DNA of 64,000 nucleotides, taken from assembly GCF_001442805.1 (NCBI RefSeq), contig NZ_CP011131.1, positions 4,526,001-4,590,000 on the forward strand, read 5' to 3'. Positions 11,702 through 27,857 of this stretch are shown piece after piece. The stretch is from Lysobacter gummosus. GTDB taxonomy: Bacteria > Pseudomonadota > Gammaproteobacteria > Xanthomonadales > Xanthomonadaceae. The position numbers and the translations under genes were made by a program. Below the pieces are notes generated by a model, which saw nothing but the letters and a program-made list of their open reading frames with translations, had not been told where the DNA came from and did no database searches. Every line of letters starts with the position of its first letter. Position 1 is the stretch's first letter.

Positions 11702-11730
11702 CTGCGCGAGTTCATTTTTTGGAACGGACT

Positions 11731-13626
11731 ATGCCCGCTCGTTTAGTACTGCTGGCCGCAATGGCGCTCACCGTGTTCGTCTATTGGGCCGGCTTGTCCG
11801 GCCCCTTCATATTCGACGACCAGCCCAACCTGGCGCCAATACAAAGCTGGCTCAACGGCGAGGCGACTTGGCAGTCGATCGTGTTCGGTAACCAGTCCGG
11901 ACTCCTGGGTCGGCCGATCTCGATGGCCAGCTTCCTGCTCAGCGCACAGTTCGGCGGGCACACCCCGTACGCGTACAAGCTCGGCAACCTGATCGTCCAC
12001 TTGCTTTGCGGCTTCGTCGGTTGGCAGGTCATTCGTCGCTTCCTCGCCGAAGACCCCCGTCTGTCCATGCGCGCCGACATGCTTGCCAGCGTAGTCATCG
12101 CTTTGTGGCTACTGCACCCGATCAACACGAGCACCGTGCTCTACTCGGTGCAGCGCATGGCGCAGTTGAGCACGTTGTTCGTCCTGCTTTCACTGTGGAC
12201 TTATCTCGCTGCGCGGCAACAACTCATCAAGGATAAGTTGACTACGGCGCTTCCTGCCCTGTTCGTACTGTTCCCCCTGTTCGTGCTGGCCGGACTGATG
12301 AGCAAAGAGAACGCCGCCGTCGCTCCGGCGCTGTGCCTGGTGGTGGAGCTGGGGTACTTTCTCGCGCGCACCGGACATAAACGGGTCAGGCAGGCGTTCT
12401 TCGCGGTTTTTCTTATATTGCCCGCGCTGGCCGTGCTGGGAGTGCTCCTGCTCGCCCCGAGCAAATTGTTGGTCAGTTACTCCGAACGCGACTTCACCCT
12501 GATCGAAAGGTTGATGACTCAGTCGCGGGCGCTGATGGACTACATCGTCACGGTCATCATTCCGCGCACGCCGTTGATGGGCCTGTACACCGACGACTTC
12601 GTCCCGTCGCGAGGGCTGTTCGCCCCCGTCACGACCGCCGTATCGATCCTTGCGCTTGCACTGATCAGCGCCCTCGCCATCAAGCTACGTAAGCGCGCGC
12701 CTAGCGTCTTCGTCGGCTGGTTCTTCTTCCTCGCCGCTCACGGCGTCGAGTCGAGCATCATTCCCTTGGAGCTGTATTTCGAACATCGTAACTACCTGCC
12801 GGCTCTCGGCCTGATCTTGGCACTGGTGGGCCTAACCGCGCTGCTGCCAGAAGATCTGCCGCTCAATATCTTCAGCCCCAAGCAACTGGGCGCGCTGATC
12901 GTCGGCGGCTTCGCCCTTTCGTTCGCGTTCGCGACCGCCGGCCGCGCCAACGTCTGGGCGGCGTCGGACACAATGCTCGAACAAGGCCTCAAGCATCACC
13001 CGGGCTCGATGCGAGCGCAGTTAGAACGCGCAACCATGTCGCTCCAGCAGCAGGCCAATCCTCAAGGAGCCTATGACGCCTTCGCCGATCTACTCGGAGG
13101 AAGCAATCTGCGCAATCAAGTGGTCGGACGCATCAGCTGGGTAACACTGGACTGCATGACCGGCAAGACGGTAACTCCGATGGACTTCCAGAACGCGGTG
13201 GCCAAAGCCCGCCCGAGCCTGAGCATGGCTGAAGTGCCTGCCTTGCGATTGCTTACGCGATTCAGCAGGGAACGCGGCTGCAGCCAATTGACCGACTCCG
13301 CAATAGCGGACGGCATCATCACCATGCTCGACCGCGCGTCCGCCCAACCCGACAAATCGCGCGCAAAATGGCTGACCCGTTTCCTGGCGGCAGAGACATT
13401 GCTCCGTGCCGGCCGAGCCGCTGAAGCACAGACGCAAGCAGAACTGGCCTGGAAAGCCAGCGCAGATCTTCCGGTAGGCACGCTGCTCTCGCAGATCTAC
13501 GCAGGCCGCAAAATGAAGGCCGAAGCGCAGCAGTTGCTTGCAGTGCTGGAGAAAAGGATGAAGCCCTACGACAAGCAGGGCCAGGCCGAGCTCGCCAAGA
13601 CCCGGTCACTGCTCGAGCAGGAATGA
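11731..13626 (+). CDS. GT-C-type membrane protein with C-terminal helical repeats, candidate pilin glycosyltransferase 1
   Basis: 631 residues from the ATG at 11731. About ten or more membrane segments occupy residues 5-420; the rest is a soluble TPR-like helical tail. The first outer loop carries FIFDDQ (Asp29-Asp30), followed by GRPISMASFLLS, NLIVHLL, HPINTSTVLYSVQRMAQLSTLF, a SKENAA loop and YFEHRNYLPALGL. This order resembles the TMTC family of polyprenyl-phosphate-sugar-dependent O-glycosyltransferases, where the loop acidic pair is catalytic. Directly downstream of pilin genes, as tfpW is in Pseudomonas Pa5196, it probably glycosylates pilin. Family kinship is seen by motif; substrate is inferred. 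Confidence 0.72.
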   Translation: MPARLVLLAAMALTVFVYWAGLSGPFIFDDQPNLAPIQSWLNGEATWQSIVFGNQSGLLGRPISMASFLLSAQFGGHTPYAYKLGNLIVHLLCGFVGWQVIRRFLAEDPRLSMRADMLASVVIALWLLHPINTSTVLYSVQRMAQLSTLFVLLSLWTYLAARQQLIKDKLTTALPALFVLFPLFVLAGLMSKENAAVAPALCLVVELGYFLARTGHKRVRQAFFAVFLILPALAVLGVLLLAPSKLLVSYSERDFTLIERLMTQSRALMDYIVTVIIPRTPLMGLYTDDFVPSRGLFAPVTTAVSILALALISALAIKLRKRAPSVFVGWFFFLAAHGVESSIIPLELYFEHRNYLPALGLILALVGLTALLPEDLPLNIFSPKQLGALIVGGFALSFAFATAGRANVWAASDTMLEQGLKHHPGSMRAQLERATMSLQQQANPQGAYDAFADLLGGSNLRNQVVGRISWVTLDCMTGKTVTPMDFQNAVAKARPSLSMAEVPALRLLTRFSRERGCSQLTDSAIADGIITMLDRASAQPDKSRAKWLTRFLAAETLLRAGRAAEAQTQAELAWKASADLPVGTLLSQIYAGRKMKAEAQQLLAVLEKRMKPYDKQGQAELAKTRSLLEQE

Positions 13627-13717
13627 ACAACCGTTCGGCAACAAGCGGTCGTAGGTACCACGGCGGATATCGGCGGGATGTCGCCGCACGCGGCATGCGC
13701 GTAGCAGGCAAAATCCG

Positions 13718-15610
13718 ATGAAAGCCAGATGGATAGTATCCGCCGCGATCCTCGCGGCGATGCTGATTTACTCTGTCGGCCTGGATGGACCGTACCTATT
13801 CGACGACACGTTCAATCTGATGCCGGTAAGGCTCTGGGCGGCCGGACGGCTCGATTGGAGCGAGGTGATGTTCGGCAACGTCTCGGGAGTACTCGGACGG
13901 CCGGTATCCATGGCGAGCTTCATGCTCAGCGCGGCCATCGGCGGCGCCACGCCTTTGGACTACAAAGCCGGCAATCTGGCGACCCACCTGATCTGCTCCG
14001 TCCTGATCTTTCGCCTTCTGCAGAAACTTCTGGCTGCCGACCATCGTTCGCCCGACACTGTCGCAGTGTCGGCGGGCTTGCTGACAGCGCTGTGGTTACT
14101 GCATCCACTGCATGTCAGCACCGTGCTTTACGCCGTGCAACGCATGGCCCAACTGAGCACGTTATTCGTGCTGCTCGCACTGCTGGCCTATCTCAGGGGC
14201 CGGTCGGCACTGATCTCCTCACAGCTACTCAAGGCTCGCATCTGGTTGTTCGCGGCGTTCCCCGCATTGTGGCTGCTGGGTCTGCTTAGCAAGGAAAACG
14301 CAGCCGTCGCTTCCGCGCTGTGCCTGGTGCTGGAGCTGGCGTACTTCAAGCGCGATGAGGCGTCGAAGCGGACGCTGGCCTGGTTCTATGCGACGACACT
14401 GATCCTGCCGGTTCTGTTGGCCGGACTGGTCGCCGTCATCCGGCCCTCCATTTTGTTGGGCGGCTACCGAATTCTCGAATTCGATATGCCGCAACGGCTG
14501 TTGTCGCAAGCACGCGCGCTGTTTTCGTATCTGGGAATGTTGATATTTCCCAGAGGCGAAAACATGAGTGTCTTTAACGACGATTTCGCCATTTCCACCG
14601 GCTTGCTGTCGCCGCCCAGCACAATGGTGGCACTGTTGGCCCTCGTGGCGATCAGCGTGATTGTCATCGTCCTGCGGCGCCGCGCGCCGCATTTGTTCGC
14701 CGGCTGGTTCTTCTTCCTGGTGGCTCATGGGGTCGAATCGACGATCTTGCCGCTGGAATTGTATTTCGAACACCGCAACTATCTGCCATCGGTCGGACTT
14801 CTGCTGATGATTGCAGGCTTGATTTCCCTGCTTCCCGAAAAGCTCCGGAATGACTCGCGCCTTCGATACGGTGCGCTGACTGCGTTCGCACTGTGCGCCG
14901 CAGCCTTAGCCTCGATCACCTGGCAACAGGCAAATATTTGGCGCAGCAAGGAAGCCATCGTCGATCAGTCGGTGCGCAACCATCCGCACTCGCTTCGTGC
15001 CGTGCAAGCCAAGATGATCGAAGCCATCAATCGCAAGCGCTATGAACAGGCATTTGCGCTGATTTCGCCGATGGCCAACTCGAACAACCCGCGCACCCGT
15101 CTCCTTGCGTATCTGGATATGACTTCGATCCGCTGCCTATCGGGCAACCCTCCGGATCCCGCTTGGTTGGATCAAGCGATTCGCGATGCAAGAGATAGAT
15201 TGACCCTCGCCGAAACCCAGACCGTCGGCCTGTTGATGCAGGTCAGTCGCGACCATCGTTGCGGCAAACAGTCCGAACAGCGCATCGCAGCGACCATCGC
15301 CGCCATCGCCAACAAGGCCAGCGGTCAGGCGGACAATGTCGGCCCAAAATGGCAACTGCACTATGCAGCGGCAATCATCTATGGACGTATAGGCCACTGG
15401 TCCGACGCACTAACCGAACTGCGGCATGCCTGGCAGCCTGGCGTGCCATCCGAGGTGGGCGCACTGCTCGTTCAGGCTCTGGCGCATAACGGATTACGCG
15501 ATGAAGCAGCGCGTCTGTTGTGGCGGTTGAACCAAGAAACCTCGGCTAAAGACAGGGCCGGGCAGGCTGCATTGGAGCCGGCTCGTAAGATGATTTCAGC
15601 GCATCCATAA
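13718..15610 (+). CDS. GT-C-type membrane protein with C-terminal helical repeats, candidate pilin glycosyltransferase 2
   Basis: 630 residues, a paralogue of the gene just upstream: YLFDDT again at residues 27-31, GRPVSMASFMLS, NLATHLI, HPLHVSTVLYAVQRMAQLST, LLSKENAAVASALCL and YFEHRNYLPSVGLL. The membrane half is well conserved and the TPR-like C-terminal half has diverged. It lies 91 bases after the first copy. Two tandem transferases beside two tandem pilins could mean one enzyme per pilin, or successive transfer of first and later sugars. Function is inferred as for the first copy. Confidence 0.7.
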   Translation: MKARWIVSAAILAAMLIYSVGLDGPYLFDDTFNLMPVRLWAAGRLDWSEVMFGNVSGVLGRPVSMASFMLSAAIGGATPLDYKAGNLATHLICSVLIFRLLQKLLAADHRSPDTVAVSAGLLTALWLLHPLHVSTVLYAVQRMAQLSTLFVLLALLAYLRGRSALISSQLLKARIWLFAAFPALWLLGLLSKENAAVASALCLVLELAYFKRDEASKRTLAWFYATTLILPVLLAGLVAVIRPSILLGGYRILEFDMPQRLLSQARALFSYLGMLIFPRGENMSVFNDDFAISTGLLSPPSTMVALLALVAISVIVIVLRRRAPHLFAGWFFFLVAHGVESTILPLELYFEHRNYLPSVGLLLMIAGLISLLPEKLRNDSRLRYGALTAFALCAAALASITWQQANIWRSKEAIVDQSVRNHPHSLRAVQAKMIEAINRKRYEQAFALISPMANSNNPRTRLLAYLDMTSIRCLSGNPPDPAWLDQAIRDARDRLTLAETQTVGLLMQVSRDHRCGKQSEQRIAATIAAIANKASGQADNVGPKWQLHYAAAIIYGRIGHWSDALTELRHAWQPGVPSEVGALLVQALAHNGLRDEAARLLWRLNQETSAKDRAGQAALEPARKMISAHP

Positions 15611-15616
15611 ACCATT

Positions 15617-15730
15617 ATGTCGAATCTTGAACCCATGAATTTGACCGACGGCGAATCTGAGCTCTCGCTCCTTGCCATCACAGACACTCGGCGCGTCAGG
15701 ATCATCGAAATCATCAATGTTGGTTACTGA
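15617..15730 (+). CDS. Possible small leader ORF before the third membrane protein
   Basis: A 37-codon frame starting ATG and encoding MSNLEPMNLTDGESELSLLA... ends one base before the ATG at 15732. No convincing ribosome site is seen. It may be a translated leader, a remnant, or chance; it is listed because it would couple translation to the downstream gene if real. Confidence 0.2.
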   Translation: MSNLEPMNLTDGESELSLLAITDTRRVRIIEIINVGY

Positions 15731-17705
15731 GATGCAAGCTCCCTTAGGCGAAGGCAAAGCACGAACCCAGCGCCCACCATCCAAGATAACTTGGTCCGGC
15801 TTGGCGCTGTTTGTGAGTACGTTGCTGGTGTTCCTGCTTGGGTTCCATTTCAGCCGGGGTTCCGCAGGCTACGACATAGACCCATCCTGGGCGTCTGTCG
15901 TCACTTGGGGCGCCGAGCACGGTGCGCGCTGGGGCCAGGACATCGTTTTCACTTACGGCCCCCTGGGGTTGTTGAGCCCTCAATTCAGCTACACGCCATC
16001 GATGCTGCTGGTCGCCGCTTGCGGCCAAGTAGCTTTTTCGGCGCTTTATGCAATGTTGTTTGCGATTGCATGCTCGGCCCTTGCCCCCTCATCACGCTTG
16101 GCCTTGTTGCTGATCGTGGTTTGGTTCGGTACGGTCTGGGCCGGCGACGTGCTCTGGCTGACGATCTATCCGATCGCCTTGATCGCCATGTGGCGAGCGC
16201 ATGAAGGCGCTTTCCGACACTCCGCCTGGATAGCCATCGCGGCCGGAGCCGCGTGCGCCATCCCTTGGCTAATCAAGTTCAGCCTTTTCCCATTGTGGAT
16301 CGCCTGGTTGATCAGCGCCCCTATCGCGATGACCAGGTACGTGCGCACCGGTTTGCTATCGGTCGGCTCTAGCGCGATCACCGCACTGATGTTGTGGTGG
16401 CTTACCGGCCACGACTTGGCCGACCTCCCTACACACCTGGAAAGAAGCTTCCAGGTAGCGATCGGCTATAGCCATGCGATGCAACGCCCAGGCCCCGAGT
16501 GGACCGATACGATCGGGTTCGTGACGTTGGCGCTGGCGTTGGCCGTGTTGGCATTGGCTTTCGCACGTTCGCGCTTAGGCTGGCCCCAGCGCATTGCGTT
16601 CTTCATGCTCGCGGCCGCGACCGTGGGTCTATCTTTCAAGGCAGCATTCACGAGAGTCGATACTGTCCACCTGTTTATCTTTTTCCCTACCGCCGCAACC
16701 GTCCTGGTACTGCTCGGGATTTTCGTTCATAGCAATGGCTTGCGGCGATTCACAACGGCCGCCGCCGTTGCCTGCGCAGCCGGCGCCTTCGCGTTGCCAT
16801 CCATTCGCCCGGACCAGAAGCTCTTCCTGGCCATAGGCGCCCCTGCCGTCGACACGTCGATACAACGCGCACTCGATCTGGTTTTGTTCGCTCCGCGGAC
16901 CGAATATCTCAGCCGCAACACGCGCGAGCTGAGAGCCGACGCGTCGATGCCTCAAACCAGGCAACTGGTCGGCCGCGACCCGATAGACATCATCTCCGTC
17001 GGACAGGGCGTCCTTTTCCTCAACCAACTCAATTACCGGCCGCGTCCGATCTTCCAAGGCTATTCGGCTTATACGCCCGAGCTGGCGGCGATGAATCGCG
17101 ATTTCATCGTTTCATCGCGCGGCCCGCAGTGGGTCATGTTGGACCTCAGGGCCATCGACGGTCGCCTGCCGATGAGCGAGGACCCGTTGGCGATGCTGCA
17201 GGTCATCCAGACCTACCGTCCGCGTTTGAGCGAGCGCGGCCTGCTGCTCATGCAGCGCAATGCCAGTGCCCGAGCGACCGCGAAGCCGCTGGGAGAAGCG
17301 CAAGGCCGCCTCGATGAGTTCGTCGTGGTTCCTTCCAGGCCCGGTCAAGCGCTCGCTTTGAGCATCGACATCGAGCCCACCGCCTGGGGCCGGGCCGCCG
17401 GGGCGCTGCACCGATCGCCTCGCTTGTATATCGATCTGGAGCTCGGCGATGGAACGCAACGCAGCTATCGCATCGTTCCGGGTGCGGCGCGGGCGGGATT
17501 CCTGCTGTCGCCGCTTATCGAAAACACACAGTCGCTCTGGGACTGGCTGGCCACCGACAAAAGCGAACGCGTAGCCCGGCTGCGTTTGCGCGGCGAATCC
17601 TGGCTTGGGCATGCCGGGTTCGAGCAAGACTACCGGCTGCGCTACAGCGAACCGGCGGTAACATCGTCTCCGGTGTCGCCTCATGATCCTGCGCCGACGC
17701 CCTAG
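15717..17705 (+). CDS. Large polytopic membrane protein, possible third GT-C enzyme
   Basis: About 662 residues. Roughly ten or more membrane helices lie within residues 20-410, then a soluble C-terminal half of mixed beta-type sequence. The first outer loop has YDIDPSW (acidic residues near 58-60) and TYGPLGLLSPQF; an Asp after the first helix is typical of GT-C proteins but is not proof. It is not recognisably a copy of the two upstream proteins. The ATG at 15717 was chosen; 15732 would follow the small ORF stop by one base. It converges on gtrA with only 57 bases between stops. Its job in the island is unknown. Confidence 0.55.
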   Translation: MLVTEMQAPLGEGKARTQRPPSKITWSGLALFVSTLLVFLLGFHFSRGSAGYDIDPSWASVVTWGAEHGARWGQDIVFTYGPLGLLSPQFSYTPSMLLVAACGQVAFSALYAMLFAIACSALAPSSRLALLLIVVWFGTVWAGDVLWLTIYPIALIAMWRAHEGAFRHSAWIAIAAGAACAIPWLIKFSLFPLWIAWLISAPIAMTRYVRTGLLSVGSSAITALMLWWLTGHDLADLPTHLERSFQVAIGYSHAMQRPGPEWTDTIGFVTLALALAVLALAFARSRLGWPQRIAFFMLAAATVGLSFKAAFTRVDTVHLFIFFPTAATVLVLLGIFVHSNGLRRFTTAAAVACAAGAFALPSIRPDQKLFLAIGAPAVDTSIQRALDLVLFAPRTEYLSRNTRELRADASMPQTRQLVGRDPIDIISVGQGVLFLNQLNYRPRPIFQGYSAYTPELAAMNRDFIVSSRGPQWVMLDLRAIDGRLPMSEDPLAMLQVIQTYRPRLSERGLLLMQRNASARATAKPLGEAQGRLDEFVVVPSRPGQALALSIDIEPTAWGRAAGALHRSPRLYIDLELGDGTQRSYRIVPGAARAGFLLSPLIENTQSLWDWLATDKSERVARLRLRGESWLGHAGFEQDYRLRYSEPAVTSSPVSPHDPAPTP

Positions 17706-17762
17706 CCGACCTGCAACACCCGAGGAACGGCCTAGGCCTTCGCGCACGCCGCCAACGCCGGC

Positions 17763-18170
17763 TTATTCGCTCCTGCCCGGCGCGAAAGAAAGGTATTTGT
17801 GCCCGAAGTAGCTCGTAACGACGGGAACAGCGATGCCGATGGCGTGCGCGATCGTTTCTGCGTGAGCGTGAACTCCGATCGCCGGCAGCACCACGCGAAC
17901 CAGTAGCAAACTGATCGCGATCGTCTGCAGTACCGCGGCAAGGTTGACCGCGACGAACCAGCCGATCTGGCGATGTAGCCGCGCCGCGCCGTCGGCCTGG
18001 AAAACGAAAATCTTGTTGAGGACGAAGGCCGTCGCCATACCCAGGCAATAGGCGAGCGTGATGGCAGGGACATAGTCCATCCACGTACTCAGCGCGATCC
18101 GCGAGCCGAAATTGACCACGGCCGCGGCCCCGCCCGCCAGAACGAAAAGAATGAAGCGGCGCGAAATCAA
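17763..18170 (-). CDS. GtrA-family small membrane protein
   Basis: 135 residues with four membrane helices and the GtrA signature: RFILFVLAGGAAAVVNFGSRI at the start, LAYCLGMATAFVLNKIFVF in the middle, and SYFGHKYLSF at the end. GtrA proteins are linked to translocation of polyprenyl-phosphate sugars; the mycobacterial relative Rv3789 sits beside dprE1. The TTG at 18170 is preferred because GAGGTAAG lies at ribosome-site distance and the result fits the usual family length; a longer frame from 18236 overlaps the upstream gene. It is the last gene of the ten-gene run. Confidence 0.8.
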   Translation of the reverse strand: MISRRFILFVLAGGAAAVVNFGSRIALSTWMDYVPAITLAYCLGMATAFVLNKIFVFQADGAARLHRQIGWFVAVNLAAVLQTIAISLLLVRVVLPAIGVHAHAETIAHAIGIAVPVVTSYFGHKYLSFAPGRSE

Positions 18171-18198
18171 GGTACTTACCTCATCCGAAGGGGTGCGA

Positions 18199-19506
18199 TT
18201 AATCGGCGGCGGCGACGGCGGCGAGTGTGCGTCCAACCGCTATGCTCTCGTTGATCGATCGATCCTCGGGGTAGTAATACGAAGTATCGGCCATGTAAAA
18301 ACCTGGCACCGGCGTCTTCATCGCCGGCAGCATGGCCTGGAAGCCCGGCGGGCAAATGGTCTGGGCGAAGTCGTAGCGATGGCAATGACGGGCGACAATC
18401 CAGTCGGGGCCGAACGCGGGATTGATCTTCGACAGATAGCCGACGACCTCGTCGATCAACTGTTCGTTGCTGCGGGACCACTTGGGATGGGTCTTGGGCA
18501 TATAGAACGGCGCGTACAGGATGTGCTCGCCCTCGCCCGTGCCGGGATTGAGGTTGGAGTACTCGATGACGCCTGGGATTTCGATCTCCGGATCGCTGAT
18601 GTTCATCCAGAAGTTCGCGCTTAGCGCATGGCGCAACTTGAGGATGACGCAAGCCACCGGGATGTTCTCGATCCGGCGTATGCGATCGGCGAATTCGCGC
18701 GGCAGCGCCGGGACCATGCCCGGCACGTACTGGATCGGAGCGGTTGATAGCACGGCGTCGCAGGCGCGGTCCTCGCCGGCTACGCGCACGCCGGTGACCC
18801 GGCCTTGATCGACGTTGACTTGATCGATGCCTTGCTTGAGATGGATCCTGCCGCCGTGCTCGAGGATGAAGCGCTCCATCGCTTCCAGCACGGTCTCCGA
18901 GCCACCTTCGATATAACCCAGGCTCTCGCTCAGCAGACTGCGCCGGGACAGGGCGATGCGTTTGATCCGCGTGCCGATCCACGAGGCCGAAAGATTGTCG
19001 GTGTATTCGAAGAATTTGAGATGGAAGGTGCGGCGCCAAAGCACGTCGTAACCCCGCTCGCCCAGCCAGCGGCGCAGCCATGCGGTAGCGTTGACCCGAT
19101 CCAGCGCTGTCCAGTCCTTGATGCCCTTGGTCACCATTACATGCAGGGCGTAACGAAACTTGCTGATGAGGCCAAGCTTGGGGAACGCCAGCAACGCGAA
19201 GGGCGTACCCCACTTGTACAACTTGCCGTCGTAGTAATAGCCCATCTTGGTGTCGGTCCACTTCAGCCGGTCCGACAAACCAAGCGAATCCAGCAACTCG
19301 AACAGAGCGTGGTCGGTCTTGCAGATGAAGTGATAGTAGCGTTCGATCTTGAGGCCATCGAAATTAAAGCTGGCCGACATGCCGCCGATGCGATCGTCGC
19401 GTTCGTAGATATCGACCTGGTGACCCTGCTTGAGAAGTTCCATGGCCGCCATCAATCCCATCGGGCCGGAGCCGACGATCGCGAAACGTTTCGGTGCAGT
19501 GGTCAT
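18199..19506 (-). CDS. NAD(P)/FAD-dependent oxidoreductase of the amine-oxidase/protoporphyrinogen-oxidase fold
   Basis: 435 residues. It begins with a Rossmann dinucleotide site FAIVGSGPMGLMAAMELL, continues with YERDDRIGGMSASF, and ends with a second FAD contact region PGFYMADTSYYYPEDRSINESIAVGR. Such proteins oxidise amines, sugars or isoprenoids, or act as flavin mutases; the substrate cannot be told. Its position between the epimerase and gtrA suggests a role in the lipid-linked sugar pathway, perhaps tailoring the glycan or its carrier. The ATG at 19506 gives a normal N-terminus. Confidence 0.75.
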   Translation of the reverse strand: MTTAPKRFAIVGSGPMGLMAAMELLKQGHQVDIYERDDRIGGMSASFNFDGLKIERYYHFICKTDHALFELLDSLGLSDRLKWTDTKMGYYYDGKLYKWGTPFALLAFPKLGLISKFRYALHVMVTKGIKDWTALDRVNATAWLRRWLGERGYDVLWRRTFHLKFFEYTDNLSASWIGTRIKRIALSRRSLLSESLGYIEGGSETVLEAMERFILEHGGRIHLKQGIDQVNVDQGRVTGVRVAGEDRACDAVLSTAPIQYVPGMVPALPREFADRIRRIENIPVACVILKLRHALSANFWMNISDPEIEIPGVIEYSNLNPGTGEGEHILYAPFYMPKTHPKWSRSNEQLIDEVVGYLSKINPAFGPDWIVARHCHRYDFAQTICPPGFQAMLPAMKTPVPGFYMADTSYYYPEDRSINESIAVGRTLAAVAAAD

Positions 19507-19574
19507 TGAGGCTCGGCGTATTCGGGGAGTTAGAGTGATCGGCCCTCGGGTGCGAACCGAAGGGCCTGGAAGCT

Positions 19575-20528
19575 TCAGCGCTTGAGAACGATCTTAGAAT
19601 AGGTCGGATCGCAGTAGCTCTCGCGCACCGCGTCCTCGAAGGCATGCTGGGCGACTCCGAACACCGCCTGAGTGTCCACGCCCTTGAAGTCGTCGCCGGC
19701 CGACAAGGCTTTGAGCTGATCCACGGTAAACGGCGGCTTGCGACTGAACACGGCATAGGTCCGCAGCAGAAAAGCGAACCAGGCGATGGGGATATGCACG
19801 ATCCAGGTGCGCAAGCCCTTGGCCGCCTTGATGGTCTTGATGATGTCGACATAGGTAATGCGAGTGTCGCCGACGATGTCGTAGATCGCGCCTTGCGGTT
19901 CGCGCTCGATGCACTTGACGATGCAGCGGCAGAAGTCGCGCTCGTACAGCGGCTGGCGCATGAACTTGCCGTCGCCCGGGATCGGGAATACCGGCGTGCG
20001 CGCCATGAAGCGCGACAGCCAGCCCAGGTGCTTGGGATCGAACCAGCCGAACATCAGAGTCGGACGCAGCACGCAGTGGCGCAGGCCGCTGTGCACGACC
20101 ATGGCCTCCTGCTGCTTCTTCGTATTGGTGTAATCGTCGTTGGCGACCGAATTCACCACCGACGAGCTTATGTGCACCAGATACGGCATCCGCTGGCGCT
20201 TGCACGCCTCCAGGACGACGCGGGTGGCGTCGATGTTGTTGCGGATGAACAACTCGCCGTGCTTGCCGGTGATCTGCGCATGCAGCTGGATCAGGCAACG
20301 CGCGTCGCGCAGGGCCGGTTCCCACTTCGCCGTTTCGGCAGGGTCCGCCAGATCCGCGTGAATGGCTTCGACATCGGGATGCAGCGACTTGAGGATGTCT
20401 AGGTTGTAGGCGTGCTTGTCAATCGCGACCAGCCGGGTATAGCCCTGTGCCTTCAACTCGACGATCAAATTCTGGCCGACCAGTCCGGCGGCGCCGGTCA
20501 GTACGATCTTGGCGTGCTTGTCGTTCAT
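19575..20528 (-). CDS. NAD-dependent epimerase/dehydratase (extended SDR)
   Basis: 317 residues. N-terminal Rossmann motif VLTGAAGLVGQNLIVEL, a conserved HISSSVVNS strand followed by NTKKQQEAMV. The usual SDR YxxxK Tyr appears as the DDYTNTKKQ segment (Y-T-N-T-K), so the catalytic pair is present. The C-terminal third contains a hydrophobic stretch (IPIAWFAFLLRTYAVF) that may attach it to the membrane. It probably acts on a sugar nucleotide or lipid-linked sugar of the island; exact reaction unknown. It lies 11 bases downstream of the dprE2-like gene. Confidence 0.75.
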   Translation of the reverse strand: MNDKHAKIVLTGAAGLVGQNLIVELKAQGYTRLVAIDKHAYNLDILKSLHPDVEAIHADLADPAETAKWEPALRDARCLIQLHAQITGKHGELFIRNNIDATRVVLEACKRQRMPYLVHISSSVVNSVANDDYTNTKKQQEAMVVHSGLRHCVLRPTLMFGWFDPKHLGWLSRFMARTPVFPIPGDGKFMRQPLYERDFCRCIVKCIEREPQGAIYDIVGDTRITYVDIIKTIKAAKGLRTWIVHIPIAWFAFLLRTYAVFSRKPPFTVDQLKALSAGDDFKGVDTQAVFGVAQHAFEDAVRESYCDPTYSKIVLKR

Positions 20529-20539
20529 CGAAATCCGGC

Positions 20540-21271
20540 TTACAGCTTGATACGGCGAAAGACGAATTCGGGGATGTTCTTGATCGCCTGCATGATTCCC
20601 CACCAGAACCATGGCAGGTAGGCCACGCCGCGGCGCTTGTCGATCGCATCGACGATGCCGCGCGCTATCCGGTCGGGCGTGGCCCACAACGCGCCTTTCT
20701 TGAACGACCGGGTCATCGGCGTATCGACGAAGCCCGGCTTGATCGTCAGCACATTGATCCCGTCGGCGTTGAGACGTTGGCGCAGGCCGCTGAAAAAGGT
20801 GCTGACCGCGGCTTTGGCGCTGCCGTAAAGATAGTTGCTGGCACGGCCGCGATCGCCGGCGACGGACGAGATCGCCGCCAGCGTGGAACCGGACTTGAGC
20901 CGCGGAGCGATCGCCGTGGCCAACGCGATGGTGGACAAGCCATTGGTGGAAAACTCGCGCAGCGCCAGTTCCGCCGACGCCTCGCAAGCCGCCTGGTCGG
21001 GCAAGGTACCGTGCGCGATCAGAACCAGATCGATCTGGCCGAACTCGGCCCAGGCCGCGTCGAGCACGTCCTGATGCCGCTCGTAAGCGTTGACGTCGAA
21101 CGCGCTCACCGCGGTCTTGCCGGCGCCGCGTACGCCCAGGTCGGCGGCGATCGCGCTCAGCCGGTCCAGGTCGCGACCGACCAGATACAGCGCGGCGCCG
21201 CGAGCGGCGTAAACACGGGCGGTGGCCTCGGCGATGGCCGATGTGGCGCCGATGATCAGGACTCGGTACAT
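20540..21271 (-). CDS. DprE2-like short-chain reductase of decaprenyl-phosphate-arabinose synthesis
   Basis: 243 residues. Rossmann start VLIIGATSAIAEATARVYA, Ser in ISSVAGDRGRASN, and the YGSAKAA (YxxxK) catalytic pair, followed by IKPGFVDTPMT. The C-terminus KNIPEFVFRRIKL resembles the mycobacterial DprE2 end RHIPRSIFRKLPI as I recall it. DprE2 reduces the 2-keto intermediate made by DprE1, completing epimerisation of ribose to arabinose on the polyprenyl phosphate. It starts two bases after the dprE1-like stop, so the pair is tightly coupled exactly as in mycobacteria. Confidence 0.85.
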   Translation of the reverse strand: MYRVLIIGATSAIAEATARVYAARGAALYLVGRDLDRLSAIAADLGVRGAGKTAVSAFDVNAYERHQDVLDAAWAEFGQIDLVLIAHGTLPDQAACEASAELALREFSTNGLSTIALATAIAPRLKSGSTLAAISSVAGDRGRASNYLYGSAKAAVSTFFSGLRQRLNADGINVLTIKPGFVDTPMTRSFKKGALWATPDRIARGIVDAIDKRRGVAYLPWFWWGIMQAIKNIPEFVFRRIKL

Positions 21272-21273
21272 GC

Positions 21274-22572
21274 TCACTCCATCACCCGGCGCCAAAAACC
21301 GGACGAGAACTTCGGATCGATATGGGCCTGAAAGCGCGGCCATTGCGGGTATGCGCTACGGAACAGACGGCCGGACATGCGCGCATCCTTGGCCGGATAC
21401 ACCGCGCCGCCGGCCTCGGCGACGATGGCGTCGAGGCGATCGAGCAGCGCGAAGGTCGCCGGGCCGCCATTAGGAAAATCCAATGCCAGCGTCGTGCCGG
21501 GACGAGGAAACGAAAGCAGGCCGAGCGAGGGAATCTCGCCGAATTCTTTCAGCACCGCCAAGAACGAACCGCCGCCGTCGCGCGAGATTTCACCGAGCAT
21601 CGCGGCGATGCCGTCGCGCGCGTTCGCTGGCGGCAGCACGCATTGGTGCTGGAAGAAACCGCGCGGGCCGTACATGCGGTTCCAGTCGCCGATGCCGTCG
21701 AGCGGATAGAAGTAGTTCGCGTAATGAACACTGTCGCGTCGGCGCGGCGCCCGCTGGCGGTGGTAGTACAAGGCGTTGAGCGGACGCAGGCTGAGCCGGT
21801 TGACCAGCGACATGGGCGGTGTGAACGGCATCGCCATAGGCGTCGCCGACGCGGGCACATGCCGGCCGGCGTCGCCGGGCGCATGATCGGCGCGCAGGAA
21901 ATGGCCGCGCCCTAGGGAGCGGCCGCGAGCCATGCAGTCGATCCAGGCGACGGTGTATTCGTGGCTGTGCGCCGATTGCGCCGACAGAGCGAAAAAATCG
22001 TCGAGCTGGCCGAAGCGGATCGACTCGACCTCCATCCACGGACCGGGCACGCGCCGCAATTGCAATTCCGCCCAGACGATCGCGCCGGTCAACCCCAGCC
22101 CACCGACGCTGGCCGCGAACAAATCCTCGCCGGGCGCGCACACCTGGCGGCTGCCGTCGCTGCGCAGCAATTCGAAGCAGCGCAGGTGATGGCCGAAATT
22201 GCCCGAGCCGTGATGGTTTTTGCCGTGCACGTCGTTGGCGATCGCGCCACCCACGGTGACGTAACGGGTGCCCGGCGTCACCGGCAGGAACCAGCCCTGC
22301 GGCAAGGCGATGGCGATGATGTCCGCCAGGGTCACCCCGGCCTCGCAGCGCAACACGCCGCTGGCGGAATCGAACGCGATGAAACGATCGAGACCGCGCA
22401 GGTGCAGCAAGGTGCCGTCCGGGTTGAGGCAACTGTCGCCGTAACTGCGGCCGTTGCCGTAGGGCAGAACGCTGCCATCGACCTGCGGCAATGGCTGGCG
22501 GCGATCGGTCAGCGGCACGATCCGCTGGCGTGCCTGCGGATAACGCCCCCAGGATTGGCCCGGCCGGGTCAT
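21274..22572 (-). CDS. DprE1-like FAD oxidase (decaprenylphosphoryl-ribose 2'-oxidase family)
   Basis: 432 residues from the ATG at 22572, which overlaps the upstream stop as ATGA. VAO-type flavoprotein: PYGNGRSYGD and GGAIANDVHGKNHH (FAD binding, with the His equivalent to DprE1 His132), VGGLGLTGAIVWAEL, and a substrate domain with MYGPRGFFQHQCVLP, LDFPNGG and YPAKDAR (catalytic Lys equivalent). This pattern is specific to DprE1 rather than general FAD-linked oxidases. At the benzothiazinone-target Cys position (mycobacterial Cys387) this protein has Ala in TLALDFP. It oxidises the ribose 2'-OH of a polyprenyl-phosphoryl sugar. Confidence 0.88.
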   Translation of the reverse strand: MTRPGQSWGRYPQARQRIVPLTDRRQPLPQVDGSVLPYGNGRSYGDSCLNPDGTLLHLRGLDRFIAFDSASGVLRCEAGVTLADIIAIALPQGWFLPVTPGTRYVTVGGAIANDVHGKNHHGSGNFGHHLRCFELLRSDGSRQVCAPGEDLFAASVGGLGLTGAIVWAELQLRRVPGPWMEVESIRFGQLDDFFALSAQSAHSHEYTVAWIDCMARGRSLGRGHFLRADHAPGDAGRHVPASATPMAMPFTPPMSLVNRLSLRPLNALYYHRQRAPRRRDSVHYANYFYPLDGIGDWNRMYGPRGFFQHQCVLPPANARDGIAAMLGEISRDGGGSFLAVLKEFGEIPSLGLLSFPRPGTTLALDFPNGGPATFALLDRLDAIVAEAGGAVYPAKDARMSGRLFRSAYPQWPRFQAHIDPKFSSGFWRRVME

Positions 22573-24011
22573 CCGATGGCGCCCAGGGCCAGCAATCCGC
22601 AAAAGACGATCACGATCTGGCTGGCGCGATCGGTGGCCGCGAACACCACCGGATCGTCGTCCATGCCGCCGCGATGGGAGGTCATCCACAGATGGCTGAT
22701 CCAGTACAGCAGCAACGGGCAGATCAGCCATAGCACCTGCGGACGCGCGTACAGCGCCAGGCTTTCCGGGCTATTGATGTAGAGCGCGAACACCAGCACG
22801 GCCAGATAGCCGGCGCTGCTGCCCAGGGATTGGATCAGCGGCAGATCCTCGACCGCATAACCACGGCCGCTGACCTTGCGCTGGCCGTTGCCGAGAATCG
22901 CCGACAACTCGGTGTAGCGCTTGAGCATCGCCAGACTGAGGAAGATGAACATCGAGAACGCGAGCAGCCAGAACGAAAGCGTGGCGCCGATCGCGACCGC
23001 GCCGCCGATGATGCGCAAGGTGTACAAGCTCGCCAACACGATCACATCGACCATGACGATGCGCTTGAGTCGCAGCGAATAGGCCAGGGTCGTCGCGTAG
23101 TACCCCATCAGCACCAGGGCGAACCAGGGGTTGGCGATGAGCGCCAAGGCGAAACCAGCTAGCGCCAACAGCGGCGCCACGAACAGACCGTGCAGCAACG
23201 GCAGGCGCCCGGCGGCGAACGGCCGCAACCGCTTGCGTGGATGCTGCCGGTCGGCGGGCAAGTCGAGCAGATCGTTGAGGACGTAGACGCCCGAAGCGCT
23301 CAGATTGAAAGCGATGAAGGCGAGCACCGAGACGATCACGGCCTCGACATCGAAGAACCGGTGCGAAGCCAGCAACGGCAGGAACACCAGGAGGTTCTTC
23401 AACCACTGGTGGATGCGTAGCGCCTTGATCCAGGTCTTGAACCCGCCGCCCTGCGCAGGCAGTTGGCCGGCGACATCGACGACCTGCGCCGCGCGCGCGG
23501 CCAGGCCCGGCGAACCATTGACGACCCAGGCATTGCGCGCCCGCGCCCACACCGGCAGATCGATGGCGGCGTTGCCCATGTAGTCGAAGCCGCGCTCACC
23601 GAAACGCTCGGCGAGTGCCTGCGCTTTGTTCGCGCCCGACAGATTGACACCGTCGTCGCTGGCCAACACCAGATCGAACACGCCCAGATGGGTCGCGACT
23701 TGTTGCGCGAACTTCGTGTGGCTCGCGGTACACAGCACGCGCGGCCGTGCCTGGGTCTCGCGCAATGCGTCCACCACGCGTTCGTCGTACGGCAAGGTGG
23801 CGACGTCCAGCTCGACTCGCGAGGCGATCTCATGCTTCAGCGCGGCTTTTCCCCGCAGCAGCCAGAACGGCAGCAGGAGCAGCAGCAGCGGTCGCCTGCT
23901 GAACAAGGCCAGCACCGACTCGTACAGCAGATCGGATTTCAGCAAGGTGCCGTCGAGATCGACACACAGGGCGACGGTGCTGCGCTCGGTTTGAGGCGTA
24001 TGTTCCGTCAC
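22569..24011 (-). CDS. HAD phosphatase fused to UbiA-type polyprenyl-phosphate phosphoribosyltransferase
   Basis: 480 residues in two parts. Residues 1-190 are a HAD hydrolase: CVDLDGTLLKSD (nucleophile Asp18 and Asp20), later LASDDGVN and a GNAAIDLPVW motif-IV region. Residues 195-480 are a UbiA transferase with about nine helices: RIHQWLKNLLVF, NDLLDLPADRQHPRKRLRPF, YSLRLKRIVMVDV, and AMLKRYTEL. These match the mycobacterial Rv3806c enzyme, which joins PRPP to decaprenyl phosphate. The HAD half could remove the 5-phosphate, the job of a separate phosphatase in mycobacteria. It overlaps dprE1 by four bases. Confidence 0.88.
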   Translation of the reverse strand: MTEHTPQTERSTVALCVDLDGTLLKSDLLYESVLALFSRRPLLLLLLPFWLLRGKAALKHEIASRVELDVATLPYDERVVDALRETQARPRVLCTASHTKFAQQVATHLGVFDLVLASDDGVNLSGANKAQALAERFGERGFDYMGNAAIDLPVWARARNAWVVNGSPGLAARAAQVVDVAGQLPAQGGGFKTWIKALRIHQWLKNLLVFLPLLASHRFFDVEAVIVSVLAFIAFNLSASGVYVLNDLLDLPADRQHPRKRLRPFAAGRLPLLHGLFVAPLLALAGFALALIANPWFALVLMGYYATTLAYSLRLKRIVMVDVIVLASLYTLRIIGGAVAIGATLSFWLLAFSMFIFLSLAMLKRYTELSAILGNGQRKVSGRGYAVEDLPLIQSLGSSAGYLAVLVFALYINSPESLALYARPQVLWLICPLLLYWISHLWMTSHRGGMDDDPVVFAATDRASQIVIVFCGLLALGAIG

Positions 24012-24118
24012 CGCTCGCTGCCCTGCAGGGTTGAGATGGGTCGAACGCGAACAAGCGCGATCGCCGCGACCGTGCCTGTCGAAATAAGATCAAAGCCAGA
24101 TCGGCCGCCGGACATGGG

Positions 24119-25291
24119 TTACTCCCGCTGCAGGATCGAACGCCATGCGGAAACCACCCGCGCCCCCGCCAGATGCTCGGTGAAATAACCACGCGCCTGT
24201 CTGGCAAGAGAATACCTGCGACGGGAATCCTCGGCGAGCGACGCCAAGGCCCGTGCCAGATCGTTCGCATCGGCGGTCTCGACCGCCAACAGCGGCGGAG
24301 CCGGAACCGCGTGCGGCAGGGACATCTTGCCCTGGCTGACGATGGCCCGCCCGGCGGCCAGATACATGTAGAGCTTGAACGGCAACACCCGCGCGGCCTT
24401 GCCTTCGCCGCCGAATACGCCCAGACAGATATCGGCACCGGCGATCTCCGACGCCAGCGCCTCCAGCGATTGCCATTGACGCACCCAGCTCACCTGAGTG
24501 GCATCGTGTCCGGCGATGAACTCGCTCAACGCCGGCCCCAGTTGTCCGTCGCCGATGAACCGGAAGTGGAAACGCCCGGCGTGCCGCTCATCGCTCAACA
24601 ACCGCTGTATCGCCGACAGGATCGTCGGCACGCCGTGCAATGGAATCAGCGTACCCACGAACAGGACACGCAAGGGCTCATGCGAGTCTTCCACGCCGGA
24701 CGGCACGGCCAGAAACGGCGCTTCGTCGATCGCCAGGGGCAAGGATCGCACTCGCTGCGGTTGCAGGTCGAAGTCGTCGATCATGCTGAGCCGGTTGGCC
24801 TCGGTATCGACCAGGACCATGGACGCGGCGCGCAAGGCGCGGGCTTCGAAACGCTTGATCCATCGCGAGGCCGCGGAGCCGCCGCCGCTGCGATCGCGAT
24901 CGCGATCGCGGAACATCGAGTCCCATATCGAGATGTACGCATCGACGATGCAATAAGGGCGGATGCCGCGCGGCAGCCACGACGCCAGCCACATGAAGAA
25001 GACGCTGGGATAAGGCACGTAGACCGGAACGCTTTCGCCGCCGCGCGCGACCCACAACACTCGCAACAGACTGCACAGATTGCCCAAGCCCAGGCCTGCC
25101 AGCGCACGCAATTGCTTCAAGGGCGAAAGATGCCGCAGCGTCCACAAATGCAGATGCGGCGGCAATTCCCGGCCGAGATCGCGAATACGCGCCACCTCGT
25201 GCGCCTGCAGCAGTTTCAGAGTCTGCTCGGCGTTGGGATAACCCGATCCGGATGCGCGCAGTCCGGCGACGACCAGGGTCTGCGCGATCAT
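24119..25291 (-). CDS. GT4-family glycosyltransferase
   Basis: 390 residues with a GT-B outline: N-terminal sugar-acceptor half (VVAGLRASGSGYPNAEQTL), then VLFVGTLIPLHGVPTIL starting the nucleotide-sugar half, RFIGDGQLGPALS, and the terminal GGEGKAARVLPFKLYMYLAA acidic motif. It would extend a cytoplasmic lipid-linked or other glycan. A GATCGC hexamer repeat near 24890 encodes RDRDRDR. It overlaps the upstream membrane-protein gene by four bases (ATGA) and is followed by a 107-base gap, the largest in the run. Donor and acceptor unknown. Confidence 0.78.
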   Translation of the reverse strand: MIAQTLVVAGLRASGSGYPNAEQTLKLLQAHEVARIRDLGRELPPHLHLWTLRHLSPLKQLRALAGLGLGNLCSLLRVLWVARGGESVPVYVPYPSVFFMWLASWLPRGIRPYCIVDAYISIWDSMFRDRDRDRSGGGSAASRWIKRFEARALRAASMVLVDTEANRLSMIDDFDLQPQRVRSLPLAIDEAPFLAVPSGVEDSHEPLRVLFVGTLIPLHGVPTILSAIQRLLSDERHAGRFHFRFIGDGQLGPALSEFIAGHDATQVSWVRQWQSLEALASEIAGADICLGVFGGEGKAARVLPFKLYMYLAAGRAIVSQGKMSLPHAVPAPPLLAVETADANDLARALASLAEDSRRRYSLARQARGYFTEHLAGARVVSAWRSILQRE

Positions 25292-26148
25292 CGCCCTGCT
25301 CCGCTACGACGCAGCCAGGCATGTCCGGCCAAGGTGCCGGCGCATTCGCTGGCCAGGATCAGAGCCCGGGCGGCGACCACACCGGCCAACACGGTGCTCG
25401 CCTGGACCGCGCCGGACATCGAGGCGATCACCGATTCGCGCACGCCCAGGCCGCCCGGCACCAGAATCGCAAGCACCCCGGCAACCGTGCCGGCGAACAG
25501 CGCCTGGACGAAAGCCAGGGTGTCGGCGGGTTCGACCAGCACCAGATAGGCACCCGCATAAGGCAGCATCGCCAGGGCATAACCGAGTAACGACGCAGCC
25601 AACGGCACGACCTTCACGGTGCTGCGCTTGCCGGTCAGCACGGCCGCCGCGATCAGAACGACGACGGTCAAAAGCGCGGCCGCGCCAACCCACAAGGCGC
25701 CGTCCGGCCGATAGATCAACGCGGACGCGGCCAGCGCGATCGCAGCGCAGATCGACAACGAGAACCCCTGTTCCAACACGCCGACGATCATCGTCGTTCG
25801 CGACGAAACGCCGAACCCGGACAGCATCAGTCCGCGACCGAGAACATGGCCGATACCGACCGGCACGTATTTGGCGAGCAAAGTCGCCAGCCATACCGCG
25901 CTCAGCCGCGGGCCAATCACACCGACGCCGAAGGCCCGGTTGGCCGATGCGAACGCGGCCGCGTTGAAAACCAGGGACAACGCGAACAGCACGAACGCCA
26001 GCAACAAGCGAGCTGGGTCGATGGCGGCGATCGCTTTCAGAAACTGCGGCCCCTGCACGCCCAGATAGCGGGCCGCGAACACCAGCGCCGCTATCGCCAG
26101 CGCATACCCCAGGCCCAGGCGCCAGAACTTGCCCGAATCAGTCGCCAC
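25288..26148 (-). CDS. Lysylphosphatidylglycerol-synthase-TM/AglD-like membrane protein
   Basis: 286 residues, about eight membrane helices, GTG start at 26148 inside the end of the upstream gene. Motifs ATLLAKYVPVGIGHVLGRGLMLSG and VPGGLGVRESVI match the membrane domain shared by MprF and archaeal/bacterial AglD-like proteins (UPF0104). Such stand-alone domains accompany lipid-linked sugar pathways and are proposed flippases or accessory factors. In this run it is a second candidate, beside GtrA, for moving or handling the lipid carrier. That role is inference. Confidence 0.7.
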   Translation of the reverse strand: MATDSGKFWRLGLGYALAIAALVFAARYLGVQGPQFLKAIAAIDPARLLLAFVLFALSLVFNAAAFASANRAFGVGVIGPRLSAVWLATLLAKYVPVGIGHVLGRGLMLSGFGVSSRTTMIVGVLEQGFSLSICAAIALAASALIYRPDGALWVGAAALLTVVVLIAAAVLTGKRSTVKVVPLAASLLGYALAMLPYAGAYLVLVEPADTLAFVQALFAGTVAGVLAILVPGGLGVRESVIASMSGAVQASTVLAGVVAARALILASECAGTLAGHAWLRRSGAGR

Positions 26149-26839
26149 GATCGTGGTCGGCCCGCACCCAGCGGTGCAAATACTGGAACGTCACGAATCC
26201 GCGGAACGGCCAGAAATCCAGGCACTTGGCCGGCACCAGACTCCAGGCCTTGGATTCGATCAGACGCACATTCCGGCGTTCGCCGCGCGGCTCCAGCCCG
26301 GCCGCGCGGCCGAGGCGGATGATGTCGCCGCGCGCGAAGAACCGCAGATGGGTCCGATCGTGGATGCCGCGATCGCGCGCCGGCCAGGTGCCCAGCAATC
26401 CCAGCGCGAGGAAGGTCGAAAGATGGCGAACGTTGGGAATGCTCGTGATCACGCATCCACCAATGGCCAGGCGCTCGGTCAGTGCCTGCAGCACGGGCAA
26501 CGGCTCGGCCAAGTGCTCAAGCACATCGGCGCAGATGATCGCGTCGAAGGGTTCCTGCGCGGCCAGGGCGCGAATCGTTTCGGGATCGTCGATCCGCCCT
26601 TGCAGTATTTCGTCCAGGTTCTCGCGCGCATGCGCGGCCAGTTCGGGCGAGGGCTCGACCCCGATCACGCGTACTTGCGGGCAGCGCTCACGGATCAGCG
26701 CCGCGCTCATGCCGGCGCCGCAGCCCACGTCCAGCACCCTCTTGCTCTGCGGCGGAAGCAGTCGCACGACGTCGGGACGAGCACCTGAGTAGCCGCGAAA
26801 ACGGCTACGCAGTCCGCCGCCGGTCCCTGCTAACGCCAT
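26138..26839 (-). CDS. Class I SAM-dependent methyltransferase
   Basis: 233 residues. Motif I KRVLDVGCGAGMSAALI, acidic motif II VIGVEPSPE, and FDAIICADVLEHL identify a UbiE/COQ5-like fold methyltransferase of the type common in polysaccharide clusters (SIPNVRHLSTF and TKHLRFF-like HDRTHLRFF are typical of this subgroup). It could methylate a sugar of the glycan. It starts within the end of the GT2 gene (10-base overlap) and overlaps the next gene by 11 bases. Confidence 0.8.
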   Translation of the reverse strand: MALAGTGGGLRSRFRGYSGARPDVVRLLPPQSKRVLDVGCGAGMSAALIRERCPQVRVIGVEPSPELAAHARENLDEILQGRIDDPETIRALAAQEPFDAIICADVLEHLAEPLPVLQALTERLAIGGCVITSIPNVRHLSTFLALGLLGTWPARDRGIHDRTHLRFFARGDIIRLGRAAGLEPRGERRNVRLIESKAWSLVPAKCLDFWPFRGFVTFQYLHRWVRADHDRGD

Positions 26840-27723
26840 TCGGGCTTCTCGTCGGGATCGACTCCCGCGTCTCGTCCGTGCAGATAGGTCAGGCCGGTAA
26901 TCTGCTCCGACACCAGCCCGATCAGGAAAACGATGACCGAGGCGCTGAGCATCAACGCACTCATATTGGTAAACCGACCCTGGGTCGCGAAGGTCCAGGC
27001 GTAGTGGCCCAGGCCCAGCAAGGCGAAGGCGATCGCCGTCGGCGCGAACAACTTCAAGGGCGAATAAAGCGTGGCGATCTTGAAGATGATCAGCAGAAAA
27101 CGAACGCCATCGCGCAGAGGCCGGATGTGGCTTTGCGTGCCGACGCGCCGCGCAACCTCGATCGGCACATAGGTAACCGGATAGGCGCTGCGAAAGAACG
27201 CCATCGTGCTGGTTGTCGGATAACTGAACCCGTTGGGCAGCAGATGCAGGAACTCGCGGAACTTGCTCGCCCGCACCGCCCGGAAGCCGGAGGTGAGGTC
27301 GAGCACCTTGTGTCCGGTCATCCAGCTGGCCAGGCGGTTGTACAGCGCGTTGGCCAGGCCGCGGCCGACGCTGGCCTGGCCGCCCGAGCTGCGGGCACCC
27401 ACGACCATGTCGTAGCCCTGCTGGAGGCGCTCCAACAGCAGCGAAATGTGGTTCGGATCATGTTGGCCGTCGGCGTCCATGAATACGATGACCTCGCCGC
27501 TGGCCGCGCGGGCGCCGCGCTTGATGGCCGCGCCGTTGCCCATCGAGTACGGCGAGGACAGGACCCTGGCCCCCAGCTGGGCGGCGACGGCGGCGGTGTC
27601 GTCGGTGGAACCGTCGTCCACCACGATGACCTCGGCGGCCGGAAACGCCTGGCGCAGTGCCGGCAGCGTGCGCTGCAGCCCCTCCGACTCGTTCTTGGCC
27701 GGTAAAACGATAGATATATGCAT
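26830..27723 (-). CDS. GT2 polyprenyl-phosphate glycosyltransferase (DPM1/GtrB-like)
   Basis: 297 residues from the ATG at 27723 with a strong GGGGAGGTG ribosome site. The GT-A domain has ISIVLPAKNESEGL, VIVVDDGSTDDT and the metal-binding FMDADGQHDP (DxD). Two C-terminal membrane helices (FAPTAIAFALLGLGHY and LMLSASVIVFLIGLV) fit enzymes that load a sugar from a nucleotide donor onto polyprenyl phosphate. It is the first gene of the ten-gene minus-strand run and is divergent from pilB. Confidence 0.82.
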   Translation of the reverse strand: MHISIVLPAKNESEGLQRTLPALRQAFPAAEVIVVDDGSTDDTAAVAAQLGARVLSSPYSMGNGAAIKRGARAASGEVIVFMDADGQHDPNHISLLLERLQQGYDMVVGARSSGGQASVGRGLANALYNRLASWMTGHKVLDLTSGFRAVRASKFREFLHLLPNGFSYPTTSTMAFFRSAYPVTYVPIEVARRVGTQSHIRPLRDGVRFLLIIFKIATLYSPLKLFAPTAIAFALLGLGHYAWTFATQGRFTNMSALMLSASVIVFLIGLVSEQITGLTYLHGRDAGVDPDEKPEWR

Positions 27724-27758
27724 GCCACCTCCCCGTGGCGCAGGATACCGTGTCCAAG

Positions 27759-27787
27759 TTGGACTCGATACCGCCGGGCTGCAGAAT
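27759..27787 (+). promoter_or_regulatory. Weak candidate promoter of pilB
   Basis: TTGGAC at 27759 and CAGAAT at 27782 with a 17-base spacer lie in the 134-base gap between the divergent GT2 gene and pilB. Matches to consensus are three and four of six, so this is only a suggestion. Confidence 0.25.
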
Positions 27788-27857
27788 AGCGACACCGGTC
27801 AGCTCGCCAGGAACTGAGATTGAGGTAAAGTCAGGGTGGGGAAAACTGAGGGCTGAA

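Follow-up and report, generated by a model that had tools for sequence, protein, structure and literature searches.

A candidate pilin glycosylation island with a pentose donor cassette between pilA and pilB of Lysobacter gummosus

Results

Layout of the island

We analyzed a 64,000-nucleotide stretch of DNA from the soil bacterium Lysobacter gummosus (the window; all coordinates are window positions), in which a candidate pilin glycosylation island lies between the type IV pilin genes and pilB. Gene calls and family scans gave the order pilS, pilR, pilA1, pilA2, then three plus-strand genes (TMTC1, TMTC2 and MP3), a run of ten minus-strand genes from 17763 to 27723, and finally pilB, pilC and pilD (Table 1). 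From low to high coordinate, the run encodes GtrA, FAD, EPI, DprE2, DprE1, HAD-UbiA, GT4, FLIP, MT and GT2. An original prediction, made from the DNA alone, had proposed that this organism modifies its pili with arabinose, and the run that it described was borne out, as were the Rv3806c-type motifs of the HAD-UbiA fusion (DLDGT at 18, NDLLDLPAD at 246-254 and KRYTEL at 364). The layout is not a product of chance, because two further genomes (G006 and G002) carry this island at the same pilA-pilB position. The prediction had also placed two GT-C proteins opposite the run; TMTC1 and TMTC2 are indeed there, but MP3 is a third candidate that it overlooked.

Our own gene caller missed some genes, and the counts given below were therefore taken from tblastn maps; several of the loci compared are truncated by the end of a contig, L086, L087, L218, L232 and L235 among them.

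TMTC1 and TMTC2 are homologous to TfpW

TMTC1 had no Pfam match and no meaningful sequence match in the PDB. A profile built from 28 TMTC1 sequences of the same order, searched against the open reading frames (ORFs) of Pseudomonas aeruginosa PA7, found TfpW (641 aa, encoded beside pilA) with an E value of 1.7e-16, the next ORF scoring 0.056. In a very small database, a single-sequence blastp comparison of TMTC1 with TfpW reached E 4e-6, with 27% identity across 212 residues, and an alignment of 34 rows including TfpW contained 16 invariant columns, among them D29, D30, R61, N86, K192, R260, R320 and H352. These comparisons identify TMTC1 and TMTC2 as distant homologues of TfpW; like tfpW, their genes lie beside pilA, and a role in glycosylating pilin can soundly be inferred. 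A search for a TfpX-like protein, done with blastp only (E <= 1e-3), compared 20 window proteins with the 245-aa ORF adjoining tfpW in PA7 and gave no match.

The original prediction in effect took the two GT-C proteins to be the arabinose-specific component. This is unlikely, since TMTC-type genes follow pilA in 18 of the 20 Lysobacter genomes (the window genome counted), 14 of these 18 have no HAD-UbiA gene (a partial UbiA match in G013, at 27% and E 3.9e-4, was left out of these counts), and in the TMTC protein tree the cassette-bearing genomes are scattered, no clade tracking the cassette. In G011, G012 and G015 (loci L068, L069 and L072), there are three TfpW-like genes, among which an additional pilin gene is interposed.

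MP3 accompanies the HAD-UbiA gene

MP3 matched no Pfam or NCBIfam family, and a search of 5.8 billion proteins, which scores only candidates sharing short words, returned just 24 homologues. Its structure model (pLDDT 90.2) gave long structural matches that were all of the GT-C type, suggesting that MP3 is a candidate GT-C-like protein. As regards kinship to TfpW, the MP3 profile did not match PA7 TfpW, and we rejected that idea.

MP3 and HAD-UbiA occur together in 4 of the 20 Lysobacter genomes and are both absent from the other 16, an exact coincidence expected once in 4845 by chance if kinship is ignored. All four of these genomes have MP3 at the pilus locus, directly after a TfpW-like gene, and in one of them (G007) MP3 remains there with the cassette located beside etfA. 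In G016, a remnant of MP3 and codons 1 to 22 of HAD-UbiA lie side by side at a single scar, in the right order and on the right strands, and both scores exceeded those of all 300 dinucleotide-shuffled controls; these remnants rule out G016 as an empty site that predates insertion. One further HAD-UbiA match, on L067 (E 9e-4), overlaps a TMTC gene, and we attributed it to fortuitous similarity of membrane proteins.

Outside the pilus locus, MP3 homologues with 29 to 30% identity adjoin the six-gene block described below in G046 and G047. MP3 is not a universal partner of that block: when the ORFs from 41 loci that were 150 aa or longer were searched with an MP3-homologue profile, there was a strong match in L083, a weak one in L219 (E 6e-5) and otherwise nothing below 0.6, with one copy, in L080, cut by the end of the fetched sequence and visible by tblastn only. 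Elsewhere, the neighborhood of the block contains different large membrane proteins.

Six genes of the run form a movable cassette, a probable sugar donor pathway

The genes for HAD-UbiA, DprE1, DprE2, EPI, FAD and GtrA constitute a movable cassette. We examined 43 loci, those of the window and PA7 among them, that match HAD-UbiA or UbiA: 28 had DprE1, DprE2, EPI and FAD, 8 had DprE1 and DprE2 only, and 7 had neither; a 24% EPI match in L235 was not counted. Because these loci were picked for HAD-UbiA, they cannot by themselves show that EPI and FAD require the DprE proteins, and we therefore added searches of 60 whole genomes, the window genome included, with cut-offs of E <= 1e-30 for HAD-UbiA, 1e-40 for DprE1, 1e-60 for EPI and 1e-80 for FAD. 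HAD-UbiA was found in 15 genomes and DprE1 in 12, all within the 15, and EPI and FAD were found in an identical set of 8, all within the 12. Relatives of FAD are abundant at looser thresholds.

According to PMC2238763, metB and etfA flank the xanthomonad lipopolysaccharide (LPS) locus; etfA lay within the fetched stretch for 22 of the 24 complete six-gene blocks found outside the pilus locus. In a tree of HAD-UbiA, DprE1 and DprE2 (36 sets), the LPS-locus copy of G119 fell outside a clade in which the pilus-locus copy of G002 branched first, the LPS-locus copy of G007 next, and the pilus-locus copies of the window and G006 were paired (supports of 100, 97 and 100). Since an LPS-locus copy nests among pilus-locus copies, the cassette has moved from one kind of site to the other, whichever way round. 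The original prediction had named kinship with an O-antigen system as evidence that would count against it, and such kinship is partly present. In G202 (L240, around 9681), a partial HAD-UbiA match beside etfA covers 25% of the query and contains a stop, which suggests decay of the cassette.

The pilA-pilB interval as a probable slot

The content of the interval varies. The gene for GT2, which resembles polyprenyl-phosphate sugar synthases, immediately precedes pilB in 13 of the 20 Lysobacter genomes. Five of the 20 have the GT4-FLIP-MT trio: the four with the cassette, and G016 with its scar. Twenty proteins scanned from eight intervals without arabinose genes included DegT aminotransferases, GNAT acetyltransferases, a UDP-GlcNAc 2-epimerase, GT4 and LPG_synthase_TM proteins, methyltransferases and a flavoprotein, only two having no family. 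The interval thus appears to be a slot for pilin-modification genes. The two of the 20 genomes without TMTC genes (G004 and G008) have in the slot a 581-aa sulfatase-fold protein (PF00884; L061:2256-3998 and L065:2238-3980, minus strand), possibly a phospho-form pilin modifier comparable to Neisseria PptA.

Table 1 Features of the island and its borders in the window
Feature	Coordinates	Strand	Description	Evidence
pilA1	10395..10826	+	Type IV pilin	PF07963, PF00114
pilA2	about 11193..11606	+	Second type IV pilin; start inferred	PF07963, PF00114
TMTC1	11731..13626	+	TfpW-like GT-C glycosyltransferase; candidate pilin (oligo)saccharyltransferase	Profile match to PA7 TfpW
TMTC2	13718..15610	+	Second TfpW-like GT-C glycosyltransferase	42% identity to TMTC1; aligned with TfpW
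MP3	15717..17705	+	Third membrane protein, GT-C-like fold; candidate transferase for the cassette sugar; start inferred	
GtrA	17763..18236	-	GtrA family; candidate flippase of polyprenyl-phosphate sugar	PF04138 E 6e-18
FAD	18199..19506	-	Flavoprotein of the phytoene desaturase/protoporphyrinogen oxidase/UDP-galactopyranose mutase (UGM) fold; candidate for a second conversion together with EPI	NF005560 536 bits; model pLDDT 85.1; structural matches
EPI	19575..20528	-	NAD-dependent extended short-chain dehydrogenase/reductase (SDR) epimerase; start inferred	PF01370 E 2e-18; motifs GxxGxxG, YxxxK
DprE2	20540..21271	-	DprE2-like SDR reductase; start inferred	NF005489 316 bits; DprE2 model 171 bits (cut-off 250)
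DprE1	21274..22572	-	DprE1-like FAD oxidase	Solved DprE1 4aut E 6e-73; DprE1 model 351 bits (cut-off 500)
HAD-UbiA	22569..24011	-	Fusion of phosphoribosyl phosphatase and polyprenyl-phosphate phosphoribosyltransferase	NF006088 670 bits (cut-off 351); Rv3806c 8j8j E 5e-31; motifs
GT4	24119..25291	-	GT4 glycosyltransferase	PF13692 E 1.5e-8
FLIP	25288..26148	-	LPG_synthase_TM-like membrane protein; possible flippase	PF03706 E 7.5e-5, below family cut-off
MT	26138..26839	-	S-adenosylmethionine methyltransferase	PF13489 E 2e-20
GT2	26830..27723	-	DPMS/ArnC-like polyprenyl-phosphate glycosyltransferase adjoining pilB	PF00535 E 1e-32; DPMS 5mlz E 1.4e-14; ArnC
pilB	27735..29588	+	Type IV pilus extension ATPase; right boundary	PF00437, PF05157

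Three smaller features were seen in the island region. A strong terminator-like hairpin of 12 pairs (10852-10879) lies 3' of pilA1, and the hairpin scan listed none on the same strand between pilA2 and TMTC1. The GC content of the seven 1-kb steps from 10001 to 17000, which hold the pilin and GT-C genes, is 57.7 to 61.3%, below most of the window. In the alignment with solved DprE1 (4aut), the island protein reads TLALDFP in place of NVCVDFP, the replaced cysteine being the benzothiazinone target.

Comparison with known systems

The pilin D-arabinofuranosylation system of P. aeruginosa Pa5196/PA7 (TfpW; PSPA7_6245-6251) shares with the island a TfpW-homologous GT-C protein encoded beside pilA and homologues of UbiA, DprE1 and DprE2. 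Island DprE1 and DprE2 are 48% and 51% identical to the PA7 genes, which, together with the TfpW homology, supports the prediction of an island that glycosylates pilin by way of a polyprenyl-phosphate-pentose pathway. The PA7 sugar genes are far from pilA (6.46 versus 5.31 Mb) and the UbiA match covers the UbiA part only, whereas the window has everything in one island, with a third candidate GT-C protein and a HAD-UbiA fusion. No homologue of EPI, FAD or MP3 was found in the 29 kb of PA7 loci searched, nor one of EPI or FAD in the 20 kb around the PA7 arabinose genes.

The enzymes of the mycobacterial decaprenyl-phosphate-arabinose pathway (Rv3806c, DprE1 and DprE2) likewise have homologues in the island, as the original prediction expected. 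The curated mycobacterial equivalog models of NCBIfam all scored under their cut-offs, however (350.9 of 500 bits for DprE1, 170.9 of 250 for DprE2 and 154.4 of 207 for the DPPR synthase), and in the island, unlike the mycobacterial pathway, the phosphatase is fused to UbiA.

Three-component pentofuranose systems such as Citrobacter youngae ORF15/ORF14/ORF12 (GT136; PMC11127046) also combine a HAD(PRP)-UbiA synthase, a candidate flippase and a GT-C-like protein, and HAD-UbiA residues D18, N246, D247, D250, D254, R365 and E368 correspond to D18, N247, D248, D251, D255, R366 and E369 of ORF15 (PMC11127046). The island differs in having GtrA instead of a MATE flippase and in adding DprE1, DprE2, EPI and FAD. 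It may resemble these systems in its workings; we do not class it as a member, because none of the ten run proteins matched the MATE family at E <= 0.01, GtrA and the LPG_synthase_TM-like protein being the candidates present. The same paper notes that some Xanthomonas systems are more complex, having several candidate epimerases or GT-C proteins, and cites a prediction of pilin arabinofuranose in P. syringae (PMC11127046).

According to PMC2238763, section 5 of the xanthomonad LPS locus (Xoo BXO8 and Xac 306) encodes GtrA (ORF9), a phytoene-desaturase-like protein (ORF11), an epimerase (ORF12), an SDR protein (ORF14), an oxidoreductase (ORF15) and a prenyltransferase (ORF16). These are the same six kinds of gene as in the island, matched by annotation only; family genomes with the block beside etfA were compared directly. 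That block lies inside an LPS cluster with Wzm/Wzt, whereas the window copy, which holds all six kinds, is not next to etfA but is flanked by pilA and pilB and accompanied by TfpW-like genes and MP3. Our literature search found no report of pilin glycosylation in Lysobacter, nor of Xanthomonas pilin glycosylation at pilA/pilB.

Discussion

The island probably attaches an unusual arabinose-derived sugar to type IV pili. We favor, with reasonable confidence, an interpretation in which the pilA-pilB slot holds a glycosylation island of two joined pathways, the second of which is a movable donor cassette. In the first, GT2 would load a sugar onto polyprenyl phosphate, where it may be elaborated by GT4 and the methyltransferase; FLIP would turn the lipid-borne sugar outward, and TMTC1 and TMTC2 would transfer it to both pilins. 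In the second, characterized homologues suggest that HAD-UbiA would join phosphoribosyl pyrophosphate to polyprenyl phosphate and strip the 5-phosphate to give polyprenyl-phosphate-ribofuranose, which DprE1 and DprE2 would epimerize to polyprenyl-phosphate-arabinofuranose. EPI and FAD would then carry this one step on, to a derivative, GtrA would flip the converted polyprenyl-phosphate pentose, and MP3, acting in the periplasm, would attach the pentose to the pilin glycan. This second pathway, with its six enzymes, would be the movable part, found elsewhere in the order mostly in the LPS locus.

The transferred product is probably a further-converted pentose. Plain D-arabinofuranose, the sugar originally proposed, is doubtful, because EPI and FAD have been added and have no homologues found near the PA7 arabinose genes. 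It is possible, if somewhat unlikely, that the substrate of FAD and EPI is instead the polyprenyl carrier or a different sugar and that ordinary D-arabinofuranose is transferred, a reading compatible with either the favored interpretation or TfpW-type arabinosylation; the sugar-epimerase motifs of EPI and the confinement of EPI and FAD to the same DprE1-bearing genomes argue against it. FAD has not been treated as a proven UGM, since UGM is only one of its many relatives by profile and structure. Lyxofuranose, the C3 epimer of arabinose, may be another candidate product.

We regard it as unlikely that, as first proposed, TMTC1 or TMTC2 uses polyprenyl-phosphate-arabinose to put D-arabinofuranose on pilin, with MP3 having some other role. 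The homology of TMTC1 to PA7 TfpW and the closeness of DprE1 and DprE2 to the PA7 genes fit such a scheme; the many TMTC-bearing genomes that lack HAD-UbiA, the failure of any TMTC clade to track the cassette and the lack of an EPI or FAD homologue near the PA7 genes speak against it. Alternatively, the island might mainly serve LPS or another surface polysaccharide and merely sit in a pilA-pilB hotspot, as the predominance of etfA-side blocks and the nesting of the G007 copy would allow. We find this quite improbable, given that MP3 stays by pilA in G007 despite the cassette being elsewhere, that it always follows a TfpW-like gene at the pilus locus, and that the slot in other genomes carries other candidate pilin-modification genes.

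Production of polyprenyl-phosphate L-xylose by the cassette would be a more specific outcome, and a very improbable one. After polyprenyl-phosphate-D-arabinofuranose had been made by HAD-UbiA and DprE1/DprE2, FAD would convert it to the pyranose, an activity proposed because its fold includes UGM, and the epimerase would invert C4, giving L-xylose because that sugar is the C4 epimer of D-arabinose. If true, this would explain the O-antigen of X. campestris pv. begoniae, a partially L-xylosylated L-rhamnan going by the title of reference 61 in PMC5786101, would predict the same sugar on Lysobacter pili, and would mean that the location of a single donor cassette and the GT-C protein that accompanies it decide whether LPS or pili are decorated. 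We hold it less likely because the O-antigen of an X. axonopodis pv. citri strain is described as a rhamnose polymer (PMC8042644), even though Xac 306 carries the six gene kinds (PMC2238763), and because the Xylella O-antigen carries D-xylose (PMC5786101).

Returning to the favored interpretation, the island is not categorically new; it extends TfpW-type and three-component pentose glycosylation by an extra GT-C-like protein, a longer predicted donor pathway and a cassette shared with LPS loci. The analysis points to MP3, a rare GT-C-like protein, and to FAD and EPI as a putative two-gene extension of the arabinose pathway. Pilin sugars can alter phage recognition in P. aeruginosa and P. paraeruginosa, according to PMC11841053 and PMC12369383. 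If our interpretation is correct, pilin glycosylation from a polyprenyl-phosphate-pentose donor would reach well beyond Pseudomonas, and one donor cassette would have been reused for two surface structures by relocation and a swap of the transferase.

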